From DATKZS01 sp035527835 [NCBI: bacterium] (lineage in GTDB: Bacteria; RBG-13-61-14): a stretch of 54,948 bases of DNA. Both the position numbers and the translations under genes were made by a program. The notes beneath the pieces were generated by a model that saw only the letters and a program-made list of their open reading frames with translations, was not told the DNA's origin and did no database searches. Positions 8,294-36,962 of this stretch are shown here, in pieces (the first letter of the stretch is position 1; each line of letters starts with the position of its first letter). The DNA is taken from positions 1 through 54,948 of the forward strand of contig DATKZS010000137.1 in assembly GCA_035527835.1 (NCBI GenBank), given 5' to 3'.

Positions 8294-10081
8294 TCAGGAA
8301 TTCTTGGACTTTTCCATCTGGAGAATGCGTTCCTCGATCAGGGCCTCGGCCAGGGCGGGTACTACCTCCCATACCACGGACTCGACGACCTCGCGGATGA
8401 TGGCGAACAGCTCTTCCTTGCTTACGCCGCTCATGGCGGCATCGCTGATGCGCTGGGCGGCCTCCTCGATGGCGGGCCCGGCTTCGGCGGGAGCGGCGGG
8501 CGCGGGTTCCGGCTCCGCGGGCGGAGCAAGCTCGGCAACGGGCTCGGCTTCCGGCTCGGCCAGCGCCTCCGCCGGAATCGGCTCGGCTTCCGGCTCGGCC
8601 AACGCCTCCGCCGGAATCGGCTCGGCTTCCGGCTCGGCCAGGGCCTCCAGCGGCACAGGCTCGGCTTCCGGCGCCGGCTCGAATACCTGCTCCTCCGGCA
8701 GCGGCGCCGCCAGCGGTTCTTCCATCTCCATCATCGGCTCGGCCGGCTCAACCTCCAGCGGCTCCGCTTCCGGTCCGGGCTCGGGCAATAGTTCTCCTTC
8801 CGCTTCCGGCACGAGCTCGGCGGCGGGCTCGGCGAAGAGGTCCGCGGGCTGGGTTTCCAGTTGGGCATAGGATTCGAGCGGCAGCTCGTCCTCCTCGGAA
8901 GCGATTTCGGGGGCGGGCTGCTCGTAGTCCGCCTGCTCGGTGATCCCGGTCGGCTCCAGGCCGGGCAAGGTCTCATAGGTCTCGGGAGACGCGCCCGGCT
9001 CCTCGGATCCCCAATAGTCCACGGGCGCCGCGGCAGGCTCGGGCTGGGCCGCCGGCTCCTGTCCCCATACTTCAGCTTCCGGAGCGGGTTCCGGTTCCGG
9101 CTCCGCGATCGGCTCGGCTTCCATCACCGGCCCGGCGGGAGCGGGCTCTCCCCACATGTCGCCGGCGGGGGCCGGCTCCGCTTCGGCGGCAGGCGCAACT
9201 CCCCAGATGTCGGCCTCCGGCTGGGCCGCGGGCTGCGCTCCCCATAAGTCATCGGCGGCGGGAGGAGCAGGCTCCGCGGCCGCAGAGCCGAACGACGCCT
9301 GCTTCCACAATTCCTCGTCGGAAGCCGCGGCCGCGGGCGGCTCGGCGGGTTCCGTCTCCAGCGCGGCGAAGAGGTCAGGCTCCGGCGCGGGCGGCTCGGC
9401 TGCCGGCAGCTCCACGGGCTGGGCCTCCGGGGCCGCGAACAGGTCCTGGTCCGCCGCGGCCGCGGGTTCCGTCTCCGGCACGGCGAACAGGTCGGCGGCG
9501 GACGTTTCCACCGGCGGGGCCTCCGGCGCGGCGAAGAGATCGTCCATGGGAGGAGGCTCCGCGGACGCTTCGGGCGCCGCGAACGCTTCGGGGGCCGCCT
9601 GGGCGGACGGGGCCTCCGGCGCGGCGAAGAGGTCAGGCTCCGGCGCGGGCGGCGCGGCGGGCGGCGCGGGCTCCGCGACGGGCGGCGGAGCGGGCGCCGC
9701 CGGGGCCACGGGCGCGCGGGAGAGCGCTTCCTCCACCTTGCTGATGAGGGTTGAGGATTCGAAGGGCTTGATGATGTAGCCGTCAGCGCCGATCTGCGCG
9801 CCTTTCATCTCATCGAATCCCTCGAAGCTGCCGGCGAGGAGGAGGACGGGGATCTGGCGGAGCTTGGGGTCGGCCTTGATGGCCTCGCACACCTGGTAGC
9901 CGTCCTTGCCCGGCATGACCACGTCCGCCAACACCAGGTCCGGCATCACCTGCTTGACCTTGGCCAGCGCGTCGTCGCCGTTGTCCACCGCGATCAGCTC
10001 ATAGTCTCCGTCGGCCAAGGTTATGCGCACCACTTTCTGGATGGTGATGCTGTCGTCCGCGAGCAAAATCTTTTTGGCCAT
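8294..10081 (-). CDS. response regulator with a 400-residue Pro/Ala/Glu-rich linker and a C-terminal helix
   Basis: A 595-residue protein. Residues 1-122 form a complete receiver domain: acidic pocket D9/D10, phospho-acceptor D53 (LVLADVVMPGKDG), Ser85 and K105 (YIIKPF). A linker of about 400 residues follows, made of Pro, Ala and Glu with recurring DLFAAPEAP units, several W-G motifs (DLWGAQP, DIWGVAP, DMWGEPA, VDYWGSE) and a 13-residue tandem repeat ALAEPEAEPIPAE. The last about 60 residues (GVSKEELFAIIREVVESVVW) look like a conserved amphipathic helix module, known from similar delta-proteobacterial receivers. No DNA-binding or enzymatic output domain is present. It is encoded directly downstream of a CheW-like gene, so a chemosensory or spatial-organising role is inferred. 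Confidence 0.85.
   Translation of the reverse strand: MAKKILLADDSITIQKVVRITLADGDYELIAVDNGDDALAKVKQVMPDLVLADVVMPGKDGYQVCEAIKADPKLRQIPVLLLAGSFEGFDEMKGAQIGADGYIIKPFESSTLISKVEEALSRAPVAPAAPAPPPVAEPAPPAAPPAPEPDLFAAPEAPSAQAAPEAFAAPEASAEPPPMDDLFAAPEAPPVETSAADLFAVPETEPAAAADQDLFAAPEAQPVELPAAEPPAPEPDLFAALETEPAEPPAAAASDEELWKQASFGSAAAEPAPPAADDLWGAQPAAQPEADIWGVAPAAEAEPAPAGDMWGEPAPAGPVMEAEPIAEPEPEPAPEAEVWGQEPAAQPEPAAAPVDYWGSEEPGASPETYETLPGLEPTGITEQADYEQPAPEIASEEDELPLESYAQLETQPADLFAEPAAELVPEAEGELLPEPGPEAEPLEVEPAEPMMEMEEPLAAPLPEEQVFEPAPEAEPVPLEALAEPEAEPIPAEALAEPEAEPIPAEALAEPEAEPVAELAPPAEPEPAPAAPAEAGPAIEEAAQRISDAAMSGVSKEELFAIIREVVESVVWEVVPALAEALIEERILQMEKSKNS
8541..8647 (-). repeat. 39-bp in-frame tandem repeat
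   Basis: A 39-base unit with exact spacing (8571 to 8610) is repeated about 2.7 times inside the receiver gene and encodes ALAEPEAEPIPAE. It is a likely site of length variation by slippage. Confidence 0.85.
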
Positions 10082-30402: not shown

Positions 30403-31446
30403 TCAAGGCCCCGCGGGGACCGGGGGCGCGGGCGTCCCGAAGGCCAGATAGGCGATGATGGCCACGGCGGCGGCGATGGCGATCGCGGAGAGCACGCCAA
30501 GGGCGTTCCAGGCCCTGCCTTCCCGCACGGTAAGGTTGGTCGGGATCAGGAGCGCGAGCAGTCCCCCCGCAATCCATCCGCCGGCGTGGGCGGCGTTGTC
30601 GGCGCCGATAAAGAAGCCGAAGCCCGCGGTATAGAGGACCCAGCGGGCCATGTTGTTGCGGATGGAGATGCCGGCGGCGGTGCCGTCGCGATGGCCCCAG
30701 ACCAGCAACAGCCCGATCAGGCCGCTGATCGCGCCGGAGGCCCCGATGGAGACCCGGAGGCCAAGATACTGTGGAAACGCGCCGTAACGGTAAAGGGCCC
30801 AGCCGAGTGACGCGAGCCCCGCCGCAATCCCGGTGATGAAGAAGACGAACAGGGCCTTGGCGCCCCCGTAAACCTCGCGCACGAACGGCATGACATAGAC
30901 GAGGGCATAGGCGTTGAACCCGATGTGGATGAGCCCGCCGTGGAGGAACGCGCAGGTCCAGAGCCGCCACCACTGGCCGGCGAGCACGGCGGCAGGCTGG
31001 AGCCCGCCCAGCCAGATCAGGTCGCGGGCGCTTGCGCTCAACACGCTCGAGCCGCTGCCGCGCGCCACGGTGATGACGTAGCCGGCGATCATGGCGGCGG
31101 CGATGAAGGTCTCGGGGGACATGCCCAGCGAGAAGTGGCGGAGGAAGCGGTCGGCCATCTCGACGGGCCGGGAGTGGAGCCGGGATTTGCACTTGATGCA
31201 GACCTTGCCGTCGCCCGGGTTGAGCGCGTGGCAGCGGGGGCAGATTTTGTGCTCGCGGGTGATGGCGGCGGCCTTGCCGGCCACCGCCGCTTTCCGGGCC
31301 TTCACCCGGTCCTGCCAGGCCCGGAGCTTCCAGCGCGTGCGCACCGGGTTCAGGCCCAGGAGCTGACCGGCCTTCACCACCAGCTCGACCCAGTCGTACT
31401 CGGTTTTATTTTTCCCGGGCATTTTCGGGGAGTCATGATATTGCAT
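30403..31446 (-). CDS. rhomboid intramembrane serine protease with N-terminal zinc ribbon
   Basis: A 347-residue membrane protein. A cytoplasmic zinc ribbon with Cys69, 72, 83 and 86 (ICPRCH...CIKCK) precedes about seven helices. The rhomboid core shows the oxyanion motif FLHGGLIHIGFN, the nucleophile Ser237 in IGASGAISG and the catalytic His287 in NAAHAGGWIAGG. It cleaves transmembrane substrates inside the bilayer. It lies downstream of the histidine kinase but is separated from it by a long hairpin. The start at 31446 is the first ATG of the frame; a start at 31422 (MPGKNKTEYDW) is also possible. Confidence 0.92.
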   Translation of the reverse strand: MQYHDSPKMPGKNKTEYDWVELVVKAGQLLGLNPVRTRWKLRAWQDRVKARKAAVAGKAAAITREHKICPRCHALNPGDGKVCIKCKSRLHSRPVEMADRFLRHFSLGMSPETFIAAAMIAGYVITVARGSGSSVLSASARDLIWLGGLQPAAVLAGQWWRLWTCAFLHGGLIHIGFNAYALVYVMPFVREVYGGAKALFVFFITGIAAGLASLGWALYRYGAFPQYLGLRVSIGASGAISGLIGLLLVWGHRDGTAAGISIRNNMARWVLYTAGFGFFIGADNAAHAGGWIAGGLLALLIPTNLTVREGRAWNALGVLSAIAIAAAVAIIAYLAFGTPAPPVPAGP

Positions 31447-31501
31447 CTTGAACCTGGCCGCAACCGGATTGCCCGCGTTCCGGTAAGGGAAGGAGTCTTT
31501 T

Positions 31502-31572
31502 CACGCAAAGGCGCAAAGATCGCCAAGAAGAGAATATTAATAAAAACTTTGCGGTCTTTGCGCCTTGGCGTG
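31502..31572. repeat. long inverted repeat between kinase and rhomboid genes
   Basis: Arms 31502-31527 and 31547-31572 pair at 23 of 26 positions (CACGCAAAGGCGCAAAGATC type) around an AT-rich 19-base centre. It lies 9 bases past the kinase stop and may attenuate read-through into the rhomboid gene. Confidence 0.9.
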
Positions 31573-31581
31573 GGGAAAATC

Positions 31582-33042
31582 TTATCCGTTTCCTTCCTGG
31601 ATCGGGAGTCTCACGGTAAAGGTCGAGCCTGTCCCGGGCTTGGATTCCACGGAGATGGTCCCGCCGTGCTCGGTGGCGACCTTGTGGGCGACGATGAGGC
31701 CGAGGCCAGTGCCGAACGTGCCCTTGGTGGAGAAGAAGAGGTTGAAGAGCTTGGACTGGGTTTCCGGGTCCATGCCGATGCCGTTGTCGGAGACGCTGAT
31801 GATCACGTGGCCGTCTTCCTGTTTCATGTCGAGCGCAACTCGATGCTTCTTGCCTGGGTCCTCGTCCGAGCAGCAGGCGTCAATGGCGTTGGTCACCAGG
31901 TTGGCGAGCAGGGCATGGATGTCCTTGGGGTCCGCGAGGATCTGGCCGACGCCGTCGCTCCCGCCCAGCACCAGCTCCACTCCGGAGTCCCCGGCCCGCT
32001 CCCGGAACAGCTCGACGACCTCGGCCGCCAGCTCGGTCATGGCCACGGGCAGGCGGCGCGGCGTGCGGTCCTTGGCGCAGTAGAGCATGTCCATGATCAT
32101 GTTGGAGACGCGGGTCACGTTGCGCTCGACCATCTCCCATCCGGTCTTGACGCCCTCCTGGTTATCGTCGCGGAAGCCTCGGTTCACGATGTAAACGCCG
32201 CCCCTGAGCCCCTCCAGCACGTTCTTGATGGAGTGGGCGATGCCGGCCACGAGCTGGCCCAGGTTCACCAGCCGGTCCTGCAACTGCCGCACCACCGTGA
32301 TGTCGGTCGAGACCTCCATCACCTGGACGACGTCTCCCCGCGAGTCCCGGAGCGGAGACGTGTACACGATCACGTTGATCCAGTTGCCCCGGTCGTCGAA
32401 CACCACCTCCTCGCTGCAGTGCACCTGGCCGTCCTCGAAAGTCTGCGCCACCGGGCAGGTCTCGCAGCGGGTGTCGCGGCGCTTGTAGATCTCGTAGCAA
32501 TGGCCGCCGAGCTTGCCCGAGAAGTTTTCCTTGAACTGCTCGTTGGCCTCGATGATGTTGAATTCTCGGTCCTGGACCGAGATGAAGCAGGGGACCTGGT
32601 CGAAGAGGGTGTTGAAGCGGGTCAGGCTGTCGTTGAGCCGGTTCAGCAGCTCCTTTTTGACCGTGATGTCGGTGAAGACCTCCATCACCGCGACGATCCT
32701 GCCGTTGCGGTCCTTCAAGGTCCTGGTGTTCACCATCATGTCGTGGGGAAGCCCCCGCTTATCGAACACGGTCTGCTCGCTGGTGTGCGACTTGCCGTCG
32801 GCGAAGGTGAGGAGCACGGGACATTCCGGGCACGGCTCGCTCCGGCCCTTGTACACCACGTAACAATAATCCCCGACGCGGCCGCCGAACTCGTCGCGGA
32901 ACTTCTGGTTGGCGTCAATGATGCGCAGCTCGCGGTCCTGCACCGAGACCAGGCAGGGGACCTCGTCGAAGAGCCGGGCGCAAGCCAGCTCGCGCACGTC
33001 AAGCAGCTCGGTCTGATCCGCTTGCTCTGACCTTTCCGCCAT
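31582..33042 (-). CDS. dual-PAS sensor histidine kinase with Cys triads
   Basis: A 486-residue soluble kinase without membrane helices. PAS1 (about 22-130) and PAS2 (about 143-252) are close copies, each with C-x10-C-x2-C-P (Cys60/71/74 and Cys182/193/196). The kinase core has H270 in VAGIAHSIKN, N-box LVTNAIDAC, G1 DNGIGMD and G2 GTGLGL. The Cys triads suggest binding of a metal, heme or Fe-S cluster, or thiol redox sensing. ATG at 33042 follows GGGAGGGAGC; GTG at 33045 is the alternative. It lies 71 bases downstream of the DsrK-like/receiver fusion, which is a plausible phosphorylation partner. Confidence 0.9.
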   Translation of the reverse strand: MAERSEQADQTELLDVRELACARLFDEVPCLVSVQDRELRIIDANQKFRDEFGGRVGDYCYVVYKGRSEPCPECPVLLTFADGKSHTSEQTVFDKRGLPHDMMVNTRTLKDRNGRIVAVMEVFTDITVKKELLNRLNDSLTRFNTLFDQVPCFISVQDREFNIIEANEQFKENFSGKLGGHCYEIYKRRDTRCETCPVAQTFEDGQVHCSEEVVFDDRGNWINVIVYTSPLRDSRGDVVQVMEVSTDITVVRQLQDRLVNLGQLVAGIAHSIKNVLEGLRGGVYIVNRGFRDDNQEGVKTGWEMVERNVTRVSNMIMDMLYCAKDRTPRRLPVAMTELAAEVVELFRERAGDSGVELVLGGSDGVGQILADPKDIHALLANLVTNAIDACCSDEDPGKKHRVALDMKQEDGHVIISVSDNGIGMDPETQSKLFNLFFSTKGTFGTGLGLIVAHKVATEHGGTISVESKPGTGSTFTVRLPIQEGNG

Positions 33043-33113
33043 CACGCTCCCTCCCTGTTGTTGTGCATGCGGCCACCATCGCTGGCGGCGCCGGTTTGCA
33101 ACCGGCGCTCGAA

Positions 33114-34886
33114 TTAATGCGCCGTCTTGGCCGCGCCTCCGTTCAGCGCTCCGCGCACGGTATCCAGGACCCGGTCCGGATCAATGGGTTTCTCGATGAA
33201 GCCTTCCGGCAGGGGCAGTTGCTTTTCCGCGACGAACTGCTCGAAGGTCACGCCGCCCGCGCTCTGGTCCCGGGCGTATCCGGTGATGATCACGATCGGG
33301 ACCCTGGCGAATTCCTTCATGTCCTGCTCCTTCTTGAGCTCCCAGTACAGCTTCATGCCGGTCTTGTGGGGCATGACGAGGTCGAGGGTGACGAGGTCCG
33401 GCTTCTGGTCGCGCATGAGGCGCATGCCCTGGTTGGCGTCGGGCGCTTCCAGCACGTCGTAGCCGCGCTCCTGGAAGATGTTCTTGAGGAAGGTCCGGAT
33501 GTCGCGCTCGTCGTCAATGACCAGGATCCTTTTGCCCACTCCCTCGGGGGCCTTTTTCTCGACCGTCTCCGCGAGCACGGCGGGCACTTCCATAGCGTTG
33601 CAAACCAGGTTCACGAGCTGGCGGACCTCCAGGTCGAGCTTGTAGTGCTTGATCAGGTCGGTGAGCCCGTCCACGCAGTTATGGCAGGAGGTGACCACGA
33701 TCTTGGCGCCGGTGGCCTTGAGCTGCTCGGCCTTGACGATGCCCGATTTAAGGCGCCGGGGCGCGTACTCGGACATGGACATGGCGCCGCCGCCGCCGGT
33801 GCAGCAGAAGTTCTCCGCCCGGTTCGGGTACATCTCGCGGAAGTCGGTGCACACGAGGCGCAGGAGCTCGCGCGGCTCCTCGGTGAGCCCGCAGCTCCGG
33901 GCGTTGTTGCAGGAGTCGTGGAAGGTCACCGGCAGGCTGTTCCTGCTCTTTTCCACCTTGATCTTGCCTTCCTTGATGTAGCGGAGCATGGTGATGACCG
34001 AGCTCTCCATCTCGAAGCTCACGTCGCGCTGGCCCCAGTTCTGGCCCTCGCAGCGCGTGGAACGGTAGCCGTGCCCGCACTCCGAGATCACCACCTTCTT
34101 CACATGAAGCGCCTCCGCCGCGTCATAGAGCCGCTTGGCCACGGCGCCGCCCAGCTCGTCGTCGCCGTTGAACAGCCCGAAGTTGGTCATGTCCCAGCCC
34201 TCGCTCGGCATGGTCCAGCTCGCGCCGGCGAAGTGGAAAATGGCCGCGGCCTCCGCGATGGTCCGCGGGTCGTACTTGGCCTCCCGCGGGTTGATCGTGT
34301 ACATGATGTCCGCGCCCATCCGGTCCACCGGGATCTTGATTGACGGGTCCTTGTACTCGTTCTGCAGCTCCTCTTCCATCCACTGCAGCGTGTCCAGGTA
34401 GTCCTCCTTGAGCACCCCCATCTGGTTGCCGATCTCCCACTGGTCCTTCGCCACCACCGCCACGCCCTCCGGCATCACCCCCACCGACACCAAGAGGCCC
34501 CGCGCCATCCGGTTGAAGGTCGCCATGTCCACGCCCATGGGGCAGTTCACCGAGCAGCGCCGGCAGTTGGTGCACTTGCCGAACACCACGTCCTTCAGCT
34601 CCTCCAGCTCCTCGTCGCTGTACAGGTCGCGCGCGCCCACCCACCAGGGGAAGACCTTGCCGGTCCAGTCAATGTGCGCCTTGAAGAGCTTTCTTAGCTT
34701 GTCCGCCTTGTACGACGGCATGTAGGTAACGTCGCCCGGGTTGGCCAGCACGTAATGGCACTGGTCGGTGCACATCCCGCAATGCACGCACGCCTCCAGC
34801 GACCCCAGAATCTGCCGGTTCACCTTCTGGTGCAGCCGCTCCACGACTTTCTGGCACTTGTACGATCTCTCGATTGCTTTACCCAT
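33114..34886 (-). CDS. DsrK/HdrD-like Fe-S oxidoreductase fused to a receiver domain
   Basis: A 590-residue protein. Two [4Fe-4S] motifs come first: C33/36/39/43 (CVHCGMCTDQC) and C105/108/111/115 (CTNCRRCSVNC). Next is an ECGHGYRSTRCEG segment resembling DsrK/TmcB, then one CCG-type motif: SCNNARSCG, FCCTGGGGAMSM and SCHNCVDGL, which binds the special cluster of heterodisulfide-reductase-like enzymes. Residues 452-590 are a full receiver with D458/D459, phospho-acceptor D502 (LVTLDLVMP), T535 and K566 (FIEKPID). It follows the cytochrome b gene, so it likely takes electrons from the quinone pool. The receiver fusion is unusual. Confidence 0.9.
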   Translation of the reverse strand: MGKAIERSYKCQKVVERLHQKVNRQILGSLEACVHCGMCTDQCHYVLANPGDVTYMPSYKADKLRKLFKAHIDWTGKVFPWWVGARDLYSDEELEELKDVVFGKCTNCRRCSVNCPMGVDMATFNRMARGLLVSVGVMPEGVAVVAKDQWEIGNQMGVLKEDYLDTLQWMEEELQNEYKDPSIKIPVDRMGADIMYTINPREAKYDPRTIAEAAAIFHFAGASWTMPSEGWDMTNFGLFNGDDELGGAVAKRLYDAAEALHVKKVVISECGHGYRSTRCEGQNWGQRDVSFEMESSVITMLRYIKEGKIKVEKSRNSLPVTFHDSCNNARSCGLTEEPRELLRLVCTDFREMYPNRAENFCCTGGGGAMSMSEYAPRRLKSGIVKAEQLKATGAKIVVTSCHNCVDGLTDLIKHYKLDLEVRQLVNLVCNAMEVPAVLAETVEKKAPEGVGKRILVIDDERDIRTFLKNIFQERGYDVLEAPDANQGMRLMRDQKPDLVTLDLVMPHKTGMKLYWELKKEQDMKEFARVPIVIITGYARDQSAGGVTFEQFVAEKQLPLPEGFIEKPIDPDRVLDTVRGALNGGAAKTAH

Positions 34887-34909
34887 GACTTTCTCCTCGC
34901 TTCCTTTTT

Positions 34910-35659
34910 TTACTTCGCTTCCTTGACCGCGGCCGGATGCCGGGGGTTTTGAGCAAACAGCCGGGTCAGCGGCTCATGGCCGGGATTGAAGGGGATCGGA
35001 TACACGCCCCGGTGGCCGAGCGTCTTGCCCAGGTACCAGCGCGTAAACGGGTAAAAGATGTAGTGCGAGATCTTGGAGAAAGGCACGTAGAACAGGAATA
35101 AGGCGGTGAGCAGGAAGTAGCCGGTGAGCCAGAGCTCCGTGAGCTCCGGCCGATTGGGCGCGGCCATGAACGCGAACGCGAACCAGACCGTGAGGAGCCA
35201 GAGCGAGAAATAATCGTCGGGCGAGCTGATGGCCCTCATGTAGGGGCTTGCGATGCGGCGGATGAGCCGGCCGAGCCCGATCAGGAAGGCCGCGCCGAAC
35301 AGGGCCTGCATCAGGAGCACGAGGTAGTGGTTCGCGATCAGGCCCGGGAAGTAGGGCATGGCCACCGACATGGCGATGGACACGGCCACCGCCGTGTGGA
35401 AGACGCCGAACTGGAGGTAGAAGAGCGGGTGCTGGCGGTAGCTGGACATGGTCCAGGGCATGAAGATGTTGAACAGCGAGTAATACGCGCCCTTCCTGGC
35501 GTCGGTGCGGCCGGTGCTGGTGGTCTTTTGGCGCTCCTTGCCGGCGGTGAATTTAAGGATCCACTTGACCTTGATCACGTAAACCGCGGCCATGAACAAC
35601 AGCGCGATGATCTGGAGCTTGTCCTCCGAAAACCGCAGCAGCGGACTGATTTCGTGCAT
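34910..35659 (-). CDS. cytochrome b-type membrane subunit (DsrM/TmcC/NarI-like)
   Basis: A 249-residue protein with five to six hydrophobic segments (about 14-30, 85-105, 112-132, 150-168, 178-200). Membrane-embedded histidines in FGVFHTAVAV and elsewhere could bind b hemes. The tail (GHRGVYPIPFNPGHEP) is cytoplasmic. Together with the Fe-S protein directly downstream it forms the two-subunit quinone-linked module known from DsrMK, HmeCD and TmcBC. The start follows the macro-domain stop by 11 bases. Confidence 0.82.
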   Translation of the reverse strand: MHEISPLLRFSEDKLQIIALLFMAAVYVIKVKWILKFTAGKERQKTTSTGRTDARKGAYYSLFNIFMPWTMSSYRQHPLFYLQFGVFHTAVAVSIAMSVAMPYFPGLIANHYLVLLMQALFGAAFLIGLGRLIRRIASPYMRAISSPDDYFSLWLLTVWFAFAFMAAPNRPELTELWLTGYFLLTALFLFYVPFSKISHYIFYPFTRWYLGKTLGHRGVYPIPFNPGHEPLTRLFAQNPRHPAAVKEAK

Positions 35660-35670
35660 GACACTCCTCC

Positions 35671-36234
35671 TTATAAGGTCTCGAACGCTTTCGCGAAGGG
35701 CGCGTAGTCGCGGTAGTCGTTAACGCAGATGATGACATCGGTGAGCGACGTCCGGCCGGCCAGGTGCTGCTTGATCGCCGCGAGCATCACCTTGGCCGAC
35801 AAGTCCAGCGGCACGCCGTAAAAGCCGGCGCCCATGGGCGGAAAGGCCAGGGTCTTGAGGCCGTTGTCGGCCGCGAGCTTGAGCGCCGATTCCATGCAGT
35901 CCGCGAGTTTCCTCTCCAGCTCCGCCTCCTGGAACTTGGGCCCGCAGGCATGGATGATGCGCCTGGCCGTCATCGCGCCCGCGCCCGTGATCACCGCCTC
36001 CCCCATCTTGATCGCGCCGATCTTGGCGAGCTCGTTCTTCACCGCCACCCCGCCCCGCATCTGGATGGCCGTGCCGTAGCCGGAGCCCAGCGCCAGGTCC
36101 TCCCGCGCGTAAAACACGAACGCGTCAACCGGGAGCGCGCACAGGTCGCCGTGCTGCAGCCGGACCGTAGAGCCGCCGATCTTCTTCTCGACCGGCGTTG
36201 ACTTCGCCCCGGTTGGATTGAATGCCGCCGACAT
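35671..36234 (-). CDS. macro domain protein
   Basis: A 187-residue protein of the macro (ADP-ribose-binding) fold. Near the start is VRLQHGDLCALPVDAFVFYA, in the place of the family's GDIT motif. Then comes LGSGYGTAIQMRGG, matching the usual N-x-x-LxxGGGxAxAIxxxGG region with changes, a VITGAGAMTARRIIHACGP strand, and LAFPPMGAGFYGVPLD as the phosphate loop. Members bind ADP-ribose or related nucleotides and some remove ADP-ribosyl groups. AAAGGAGGAGG precedes the ATG. It is the first gene of the redox operon with the cytochrome b and DsrK-like genes. Confidence 0.85.
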   Translation of the reverse strand: MSAAFNPTGAKSTPVEKKIGGSTVRLQHGDLCALPVDAFVFYAREDLALGSGYGTAIQMRGGVAVKNELAKIGAIKMGEAVITGAGAMTARRIIHACGPKFQEAELERKLADCMESALKLAADNGLKTLAFPPMGAGFYGVPLDLSAKVMLAAIKQHLAGRTSLTDVIICVNDYRDYAPFAKAFETL

Positions 36235-36299
36235 TTACGTCCTCCTCCTTTTTTTAAAAATTCACGTTCCCGAGCGGATCCGAAAAATATCATGGGAGC

Positions 36300-36470
36300 A
36301 GCGGGGAGGCGTACAGGGTAGAGCGCGGGGCGTAGAGCGTGAAAGACCACTGCTTTGGCGCTGATTTAATTTACGCCCTTCGCCCTTCGCTCTCCGCGAT
36401 CCGCGCCGCACCTATTATCCATTCTCCCTTGCGAAGAACCTCTATTCTTGGCGTCTCTGCGCCTTGGCGT
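36300..36470. repeat. degenerate inverted repeats between macro and Rrf2 genes
   Basis: GTAGAGCGCGGGGCGTAGAG near 36319-36338 is loosely complementary to CGCCCTTCGCCCTTCGCTC near 36375-36393. At 36447-36470 lies a solitary half (CTTGGCGTCTCTGCGCCTTG) of the GCGCAGAGAACGC hairpin family. The gap 36235-36503 has no gene that I can support. Confidence 0.6.
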
Positions 36471-36503
36471 TCAATCCGCCCGTTGCTGGTCCCGCCCGGC
36501 CGG

Positions 36504-36962
36504 TCAGCGGTGGGCCTCCAACGCCGTGCCGGTCATCTGCTTCACCATTCCCGCCACCCGGCGCTCGGCCAGGTCGGCCAGGGTGAACGCGTTGAACGCG
36601 TCGCGGATGCTCGTGTTGATCATGGAATAAAGGCTCCGGCACTCGCAGCCTTCAACCAGCATGCAGGCTTCGGTGTCCGCGAGGCACTCCACGATGTTGA
36701 TCGGACCGATCGTCGCCTCCACGATCTCGCCCAACTTGATGTCCTTCGCCGGACGGGTGAGGAGGTGGCCGCCGTTCTTCCCGGCCACCGCCCGCAAGAG
36801 CCCCGCGTTCTTCAGCGAGATCGCAACCTGCTCCAGGTAGCGCCGCGGCAGGTGCGTCCGGTCCGCGACCTCGGCCAGGTTGATCGGAACCCCGTCATGG
36901 GTGTCCCGAGCAACCACCATCATGGCCCGCAAAGCATATCTCGCGCGCGTGGATAATTTCAT
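36504..36962 (-). CDS. Rrf2 family transcriptional regulator
   Basis: A 152-residue winged-helix regulator. It starts with the Rrf2 hallmark MKLSTRARYALRAMMVVARD. The recognition region is LPRRYLEQVAISLKNAGLLRAVAGKNGG. The sensor region has four cysteines, VECLADTEACMLVEGCEC, whose C-x6-C-x5-C pattern is like the [2Fe-2S] ligands of NsrR/IscR types. It probably senses redox state, NO or Fe-S supply and controls the operon downstream and/or itself. An inverted repeat overlaps the promoter upstream. Confidence 0.92.
   Translation of the reverse strand: MKLSTRARYALRAMMVVARDTHDGVPINLAEVADRTHLPRRYLEQVAISLKNAGLLRAVAGKNGGHLLTRPAKDIKLGEIVEATIGPINIVECLADTEACMLVEGCECRSLYSMINTSIRDAFNAFTLADLAERRVAGMVKQMTGTALEAHR

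Follow-up and report, generated by a model that had tools for sequence, protein, structure and literature searches.

The closest described systems to the one examined here are DsrMK of DsrMKJOP and its DsrM2K2 paralogues, with which it has a two-subunit plan in common, and the TmcB/TmcC and HmcF/HmcE pairs, which are the best-scoring families for its Fe-S core and cytochrome b. DsrMK reduces the DsrC trisulfide in sulfate reducers, and dsrM2K2 is located upstream of dsrAB (excerpts of PMC6018796); Tmc is believed to supply the sulfite pathway with electrons, DsrC being one conceivable acceptor (excerpts of PMC4215793). We describe a module in which the Fe-S subunit of such a pair carries a C-terminal receiver domain and is followed by a histidine kinase gene; it lies at positions 31,582–36,962 of a 54,948-nt stretch of the bacterial contig DATKZS010000137.1 (the whole stretch is called the window below). 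The module is real and widespread, and at the sequence level genome comparison demonstrates the fusion, the conservation of its cysteines and receiver pocket, a near-constant gene order, unfused equivalents, co-divergence of receiver and kinase, and an association with DsrA and DsrC. The five genes run head to tail, all on the minus strand, and are transcribed in the order Rrf2, macro, cytochrome b, Fe-S–receiver fusion, kinase; their features are:

33549..34886, minus strand: Fe-S core of the fusion, residues 1–446 (family models, Cys conservation)
33144..33533, minus strand: C-terminal receiver of the fusion, residues 452–581 (Pfam, best model NF045717, pocket residues)
31582..33045, minus strand: histidine kinase gene with two PAS domains and a HATPase domain (Pfam, alignment)
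34910..35659, minus strand: membrane cytochrome b-like subunit, HmcE/TmcC-like, with H88 and H199 invariant (family models, alignment of relatives)
35671..36234, minus strand: macro-domain protein, the constant gene upstream in the module (Pfam Macro, E = 5.8e-24)
36504..36962, minus strand: Rrf2-family regulator with IscR-like cysteines (pattern judged by eye), accessory (Pfam Rrf2, E = 2.2e-31)

The fused gene (33114–34886, minus strand) is a single frame of 590 codons without an internal stop. The gap between it and the kinase gene is 71 bases, as claimed in the initial annotation, when measured from the kinase ATG at 33042, and 68 bases from an in-frame GTG at 33045. The gene places, shared strand and order given there are also confirmed, with the fusion between the cytochrome b gene and the kinase, and the macro and Rrf2 genes upstream. 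A 'gccaaggcgcaaagacgc'-type repeat motif, recognized by eye, flanks the kinase-to-macro genes (window about 31500–31575 and 36430–36480).

The fused Fe-S subunit and its receiver

The Fe-S core is a member of the CCG-type Fe-S oxidoreductase superfamily (PF02754, 41.7 bits with a threshold of 20.6; PF13183, 39.2 bits with a threshold of 27). Its scores with the curated models are 338 bits for HmcF (NF045711, cut-off 750), 331 bits for TmcB (NF045724, cut-off 735) and 270 bits for DsrK (NF045796, cut-off 400), and assignment to any of these three was dropped because every score is under its cut-off; the core had initially been labelled DsrK/HdrD-like, and by score it is closer to HmcF and TmcB than to DsrK. 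The cytochrome b scores (HmcE 55 bits, TmcC 42 bits) are likewise under the model cut-offs. The core has two ferredoxin-type four-cysteine motifs (C33/36/39/43 and C105/108/111/115), the CCG domain cysteines C326, C361–C362 and C401/C404, and further cysteines C270, C279 and C332, and these are kept wherever aligned in all 81 sequences compared (the window and 80 relatives, below), one of which is gapped over the N-terminal eight.

Several features set the module apart from its described relatives. The DsrK family model is 453 long and receiver-free, whereas the module's Fe-S subunit carries a receiver. Relative to Tmc and Hmc, the module has a receiver fused to the Fe-S subunit, a macro protein and scores below the cut-offs, and its cluster has no multihaem periplasmic cytochrome c gene, which is the mark of those complexes. 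The module proteins contain no CxxCH (haem c) motif, and elsewhere in the window only two of the frames of at least 100 amino acids (aa) have one, with a single motif each. A Pfam scan of 28 window open reading frames (ORFs), part of the total, showed no DsrJ, DsrO or DsrP, the partners of DsrMK in DsrMKJOP. EtfD, a CCG-group reductase of the membrane with Fe-S clusters and a link to quinone, whose electron donor differs from the module's, is the top structural and sequence match among solved structures (Mycobacterium smegmatis, PDB 9ojn); the match covers the Fe-S core and by sequence stops before the receiver, and its query TM-score is just 0.37.

The receiver is recognized by Pfam Response_reg at residues 454–577 (E = 8e-19), and its best model is NF045717 (DVU0259 family) at 84.6 bits, under the cut-off of 160. 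The same model is the best one for the three free or trans receivers scanned (in loci L001, L114 and L118, below); DVU0259 family members are single-domain response regulators, whereas here the receiver is the C-terminus of a redox subunit. The phosphorylation residues D458, D459, D502, T535 and K566 are at the positions first reported for them, and they make up the whole PF00072 pocket (DD, D, T/S, K). The initial annotation had tied the plausibility of a phosphorelay to conservation of this pocket among homologues with the fusion, and all five residues are present in 78 of 81 fused receivers, the window included. The other three are the L056 receiver, which ends at a contig edge before the K, L080, whose frame stops at undetermined bases where the receiver begins, and L076 (1993–3651), in which an in-frame deletion, with no undetermined bases, has removed the beginning of the receiver, including the acidic pair; L076 is the sole fused receiver that truly has no acidic pair. 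The window also encodes, at 8294–10081, a 595-aa protein with a receiver at its N-terminus and no further Pfam domain at E ≤ 1e-5.

The linker between core and receiver is 16–61 residues long, variable and rich in V, A, E and P, so a docking switch fits better than a rigid lever. In the 73 majority-type fused receivers, b4-a4 (0.81) and b5-a5 (0.77) belong to the better-conserved segments; in the eight receivers of the window type both are slightly below the other segments (0.72 and 0.73). An AlphaFold model of the fusion (13-row alignment, mean pLDDT 75, pTM 0.57, low pLDDT at 438–447) is too weak to position the receiver on the core, and the docking idea does not rest on it.

Distribution of the fusion and its kinase

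A scan of a genome collection gave 151 relatives, and the 80 with the highest scores were kept (L001–L080); two of the six search patterns lie in the receiver, so that these 80 favour fused proteins. Their record titles include Acidobacteria, Zixibacteria, Planctomycetota, Poribacteria, Abyssobacteria, Calditrichaeota, Deltaproteobacteria, Ignavibacteria/Kapaibacterium, Gemmatimonadota, LCP-89, Electryonea, Riflebacteria, Elusimicrobia and others, and the best 80 of 151 thus span at least a dozen phylum-level names. In 79 of the 80, a result beyond chance, receiver and Fe-S core sequence share one reading frame (the exception is L080; L004 has a frame break inside the core, and there the receiver shares the frame of the larger piece), and an assembly or frame artefact was dismissed since these are separate records. 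The window's valyl-tRNA synthetase has 45–59% identity with matches in 26 of the 28 genomes compared.

The order macro, cytochrome b, Fe-S–receiver fusion, kinase is nearly fixed among these relatives. Where there is enough flanking sequence, cytochrome b is present in 75/76 loci (L027 was counted absent merely because of overlapping frames), and the two co-occurrences that had been proposed for checking, those of the fusion with a kinase and with a macro protein, are found in 71/74 and 71/71 loci, respectively. The initial annotation had held a phosphorelay link to be unlikely if fusion homologues never stood next to a kinase; here nearly all of them do. The kinase exceptions are L055 (overlapping frames only), L067 (kinase on the other strand and farther off) and L078 (none shown). 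A second, free receiver is present behind the kinase in 56/66 loci, and its pocket is complete in all 56; a Pfam scan of the L001 free receiver, the one scanned, found no output domain. The window kinase, like that of the other 10 of the 66 relative loci, has no free receiver directly behind it. The gene that does follow it (window 30403–31446) encodes a Rhomboid protease; its rhombosortase-like score is under the cut-off, and a stretch at its N-terminus weakly resembles L40e. The Rrf2 gene, whose Fe-S-type cysteines had been noted at the start and are present in the window, is not constant in the module and was rejected as a core part, being within 4 kb in only 16/66 loci. Other regulators occur nearby: a MerR/HTH_17-type regulator, mostly upstream of the macro gene, in L061 (2174–2941, where cysteine pairs were seen) and 19 other loci, and in other groups a sigma-54 activator with PAS in its place (17 loci).

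Searches by phylum, free of the receiver-pattern bias and with few candidates scored per genome, were centred on genomes of Syntrophus (Desulfobacterota), Bryobacteraceae (Acidobacteriota) and Zixiibacteriota, whose record titles supplied the phylum names used here; the figures in this paragraph hold among the matches listed. A match was counted as reaching the receiver (model position ≥542) if it ran in a single frame or was split by contig ends. Such matches were found in 10/119 Desulfobacterota genomes with a match (E ≤ 1e-60; three more end-reaching matches contain stops and are separate genes), in 12/20 Acidobacteriota (1e-150; one is cut at 542 by a contig end) and in 30/32 of the Zixibacteria group (1e-150; the matches in the remaining two end at 465 and 471). 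The 297 Desulfobacterota genomes have the fusion in 10 and the unfused core in others.

Ten Desulfobacterota regions were read, and in eight of them (L111–L116, L118 and L119) a single cluster encodes cytochrome b, core, receiver and kinase, each in a gene of its own. L117 also has a cluster of separate genes, in which the receiver frame overlaps the core, as it does in L099, and L120 has one fusion plus a second, unfused cluster. Thirteen receivers from unfused regions, second receivers among them, keep all five pocket residues, with one gap as the exception. In five genomes (L111–L115) the unfused Fe-S gene is separated from the receiver gene by UspA-like and HEAT-repeat-like genes, named by eye.

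The hmc operon has its own Rrf1 receiver and Rrf2 regulator. Response-regulator and kinase genes are present beside tmc/hmc genes in Desulfococcus multivorans and, by citation, in D. vulgaris (excerpts of PMC5109826). The initial claim that known modules of this kind have no receiver fits the lengths of the family models, but it does not extend to the operons, which do have receiver and kinase neighbours (same excerpts). As far as we have found, the trans wiring was already known as a gene neighbourhood, and the fusion and its spread appear new; no description of an Fe-S–receiver fusion was found in the open-licence papers searched, an absence that is thus no proof. PMC10504309 makes no mention of a regulator, kinase or receiver. 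A figure of PMC6018796 shows, next to dsr genes, a syntenic set of four genes without a known function; they are not identifiable from the excerpted text and could include module parts.

Each PAS domain of the kinase has a C-x10-C-x2-C motif (C61/72/75 and C183/194/197 in the window, both followed by P), which is kept in 71/71 aligned first and 72/72 second PAS domains. The proline follows in 65/72 first but only 30/72 second PAS domains, so that of the CxxCP-PAS signature initially proposed for these kinases the cysteines are constant in both domains and the proline is not. The window kinase matches HATPase PF02518 at 96.6 bits, and the ATP-site residues (N, DxG, GxGxG) are invariant wherever aligned. 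Its phosphoacceptor-type residue, H271 in HSIKN, is invariant among relatives, and in L001–L080 and the window the corresponding helix has the motif H-[GSD]-x-K-[GN], which we take to resemble HPt/CheA phosphoacceptor motifs.

Co-divergence was analysed with the window and the 47 of 80 loci in which all six segments are nearly full length. Receiver and kinase distances are correlated (r = 0.83), and the partial correlation with core, cytochrome b and macro distances fixed is 0.78 (0/999 permutations); it is 0.45 once the window-type group is removed, still with 0/999 permutations. The corresponding value for Fe-S core and kinase is −0.12, and for core and cytochrome b 0.65; a cytochrome b–kinase value of 0.13–0.25 blurs this pairing picture, in which receiver and kinase diverge in closer step with each other than with the core. 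In trees, L006, L007 and L010 form a group with the window's core (support 0.986) and with its cytochrome b (0.999), and L001–L005, L008 and L009 do so with its receiver (1.0) and its kinase (0.976). These discordant trees imply an exchange in which receiver and kinase were probably swapped as one block, in the window's line or its neighbours', so that history changes between core and receiver, within one gene; receiver and kinase are contiguous, and one DNA exchange would suffice.

Association with sulfite reductase and DsrC

DsrA is above the curated cut-off in the genomes of 67 of the 80 relatives, and five more (G012, G013, G038, G054 and G056) have DsrA- or DsrB-type fragments. In the phylum groups (DsrA at E ≤ 1e-60; among the matches listed, as are the linkage counts below; the Fisher tests treat related genomes as independent), DsrA is present in 12/12 Acidobacteriota fusion genomes versus 20/384 others (P = 8.6e-15), in 27/32 versus 20/100 of the Zixibacteria group (P = 7e-11) and in 9/10 versus 135/287 of the Desulfobacterota (P = 0.007). 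Ten of the 12 Acidobacteriota have DsrA over the curated cut-off, and G056 and G608 have fragments.

Module and DsrA are within 25 kb on one contig in 9/54 module-bearing genomes of the three groups (G003, G030, G047, G074, G080, G608, G823, G841 and G871). The order dsrA, dsrB, dsrN, dsrC, macro, cytochrome b, Fe-S–receiver fusion, kinase is found in L030, L065, L066, L074 and L080; the dsrN–dsrC interval is wide enough to hold further genes in L030 and in L080, the locus with the broken receiver. L054 has the same dsr-to-kinase order with dsrA cut by a contig end; six loci are thus inside a dsr cluster. A DsrC-family frame comes next after the fused gene in L078, and in L058 one lies immediately ahead of the macro gene; in L140 a DsrC-family gene with both C-terminal cysteines follows the unfused core after 16 bases. 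Most loci lie outside a dsr cluster, since the fetched stretches have a DsrC match in 9/80 loci and full DsrA in 5/80. A DsrK-like protein (329.6 bits, cut-off 400) with a membrane partner follows the module in L002 (12402–14012), and such pairs recur (19 loci in that gene cluster), so the module looks additional to DsrMK.

The dsr association is the strongest functional clue, and these genomic links connect the module with sulfur respiration. DsrC is the likeliest partner, given the plan shared with DsrMK, for which the DsrC trisulfide is the substrate, and the presumed sulfite-pathway role of Tmc. Contigs C50 and C124 of G010 (the genome of L010) have eight DsrC-family matches, several of them paired in one 225–239-aa frame, and no strong DsrA.

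Possible roles of the fused receiver

We propose that the module encodes a DsrMK/TmcCB/HmcEF-type Fe-S oxidoreductase that is bound to the membrane and linked to quinone. Its cytochrome b would trade electrons with the quinone pool, and its CCG-type Fe-S subunit would do so with a thiol partner in the cytoplasm, for which a DsrC-family protein is the likeliest candidate. A dedicated two-component system would set the activity of this enzyme, or partner access to it, post-translationally: the PAS kinase, with its conserved cysteines, may sense a cytoplasmic redox or metabolite cue and would phosphorylate or dephosphorylate the linker-tethered receiver, which would then dock on or leave the Fe-S subunit and so gate electron flow from quinol to the sulfite-reduction pathway, and the second free receiver could be a competing phosphate sink or an onward signal carrier. 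The regulatory part of this proposal is strongly backed by genome comparison. That a DsrMK/TmcCB-like quinol:DsrC-type oxidoreductase is gated by its own kinase through the fused receiver we regard as an evenly balanced proposition. The further step, that the receiver gates catalysis directly and that sulfite/sulfate respiration in at least a dozen phyla is switched within seconds by a redox-sensing kinase, is more tentative and in our estimate somewhat less than an even chance; such control would be two-component action on the electron-transfer enzyme itself and not on its gene.

A number of observations weigh against this proposal. The kinase is atypical: in HisKA domains the phosphoacceptor His is followed by an acidic residue, but here the next residue is G or S in 68/71 kinases and D in 3/71, and the window kinase has no Pfam match to HisKA, so kinase activity is not assured. 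The long, variable linker disfavours a rigid switch, L076 retains the fusion though the acidic pair of its receiver is gone, and the macro domain is constant yet unexplained. Partial correlations remain between receiver and core (0.34; 0.29 and 0.26 in subsets) and between macro and kinase (0.25–0.34), and the receiver–kinase pairing is thus not exclusive; exchange of contiguous receiver–kinase DNA as a block can, moreover, arise without selection. Finally, eight of the 80 genomes have no convincing DsrA (G005, G006, G007, G010, G025, G037, G050 and G060; DsrC is over the cut-off in four of them), and DsrA was found in none of eight Acidobacteriota with an unfused core, among the matches listed. 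The three genomes whose core is nearest the window's are among those without DsrA and no dsr genes are among the 28 window ORFs scanned, so the sulfur link of the window's own module is uncertain.

The oxidoreductase could instead be the sensor, its redox or partner-bound state altering the receiver, which would titrate or tether the kinase, with output through the free receiver or nearby regulators. The intact-pocket second receiver that follows the kinase in most loci (56/66), the recurrence of Rrf2, MerR-like (with cysteines) and sigma-54 regulators nearby, and the variable linker are all consistent with this idea, but the kinase bears cysteine-bearing PAS sensors of its own, the free receiver scanned (L001) has no output domain and the nearby regulators vary between groups; we consider it unlikely. 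We give still less credence to the idea that the receiver is a passive phosphate sink, or a tag that localises the kinase to the membrane complex, with the free receiver as the true effector and electron flow untouched. A flexible linker with low pLDDT at 438–447, two receivers per kinase in most loci and the partial loss of the fused receiver in L076 would suit such a role, but in 6/6 segments conservation among the 73 majority-type fused receivers equals or exceeds that among the 56 free ones (the fused set having been chosen by similarity to a fused query), and where the core is unfused a receiver gene is still nearby. A degenerate, structural receiver next to an unrelated kinase, to which the unusual phosphoacceptor motif and the missing acidic pair of L076 might point, is very improbable and was rejected because the pocket is complete in 78/81, with kinase adjacency in 71/74 loci and receiver–kinase co-divergence also standing against it.

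Discussion of how sulfite and sulfate respiration is controlled usually centres on gene expression and substrate supply. The occurrence of the fusion with an adjacent kinase in many unrelated bacteria suggests that part of respiration is switched by phosphorylation. If our proposal of receiver-mediated gating is true, the kinase–receiver pair built around a DsrMK-like subunit would allow a late step of electron transfer to be switched quickly, by a device spread over uncultured Acidobacteria, Zixibacteria, Calditrichaeota, Planctomycetes and Desulfobacterota, and the fusion would mark the Fe-S subunit as the target of the receiver and kinase genes in Tmc and Hmc operons.

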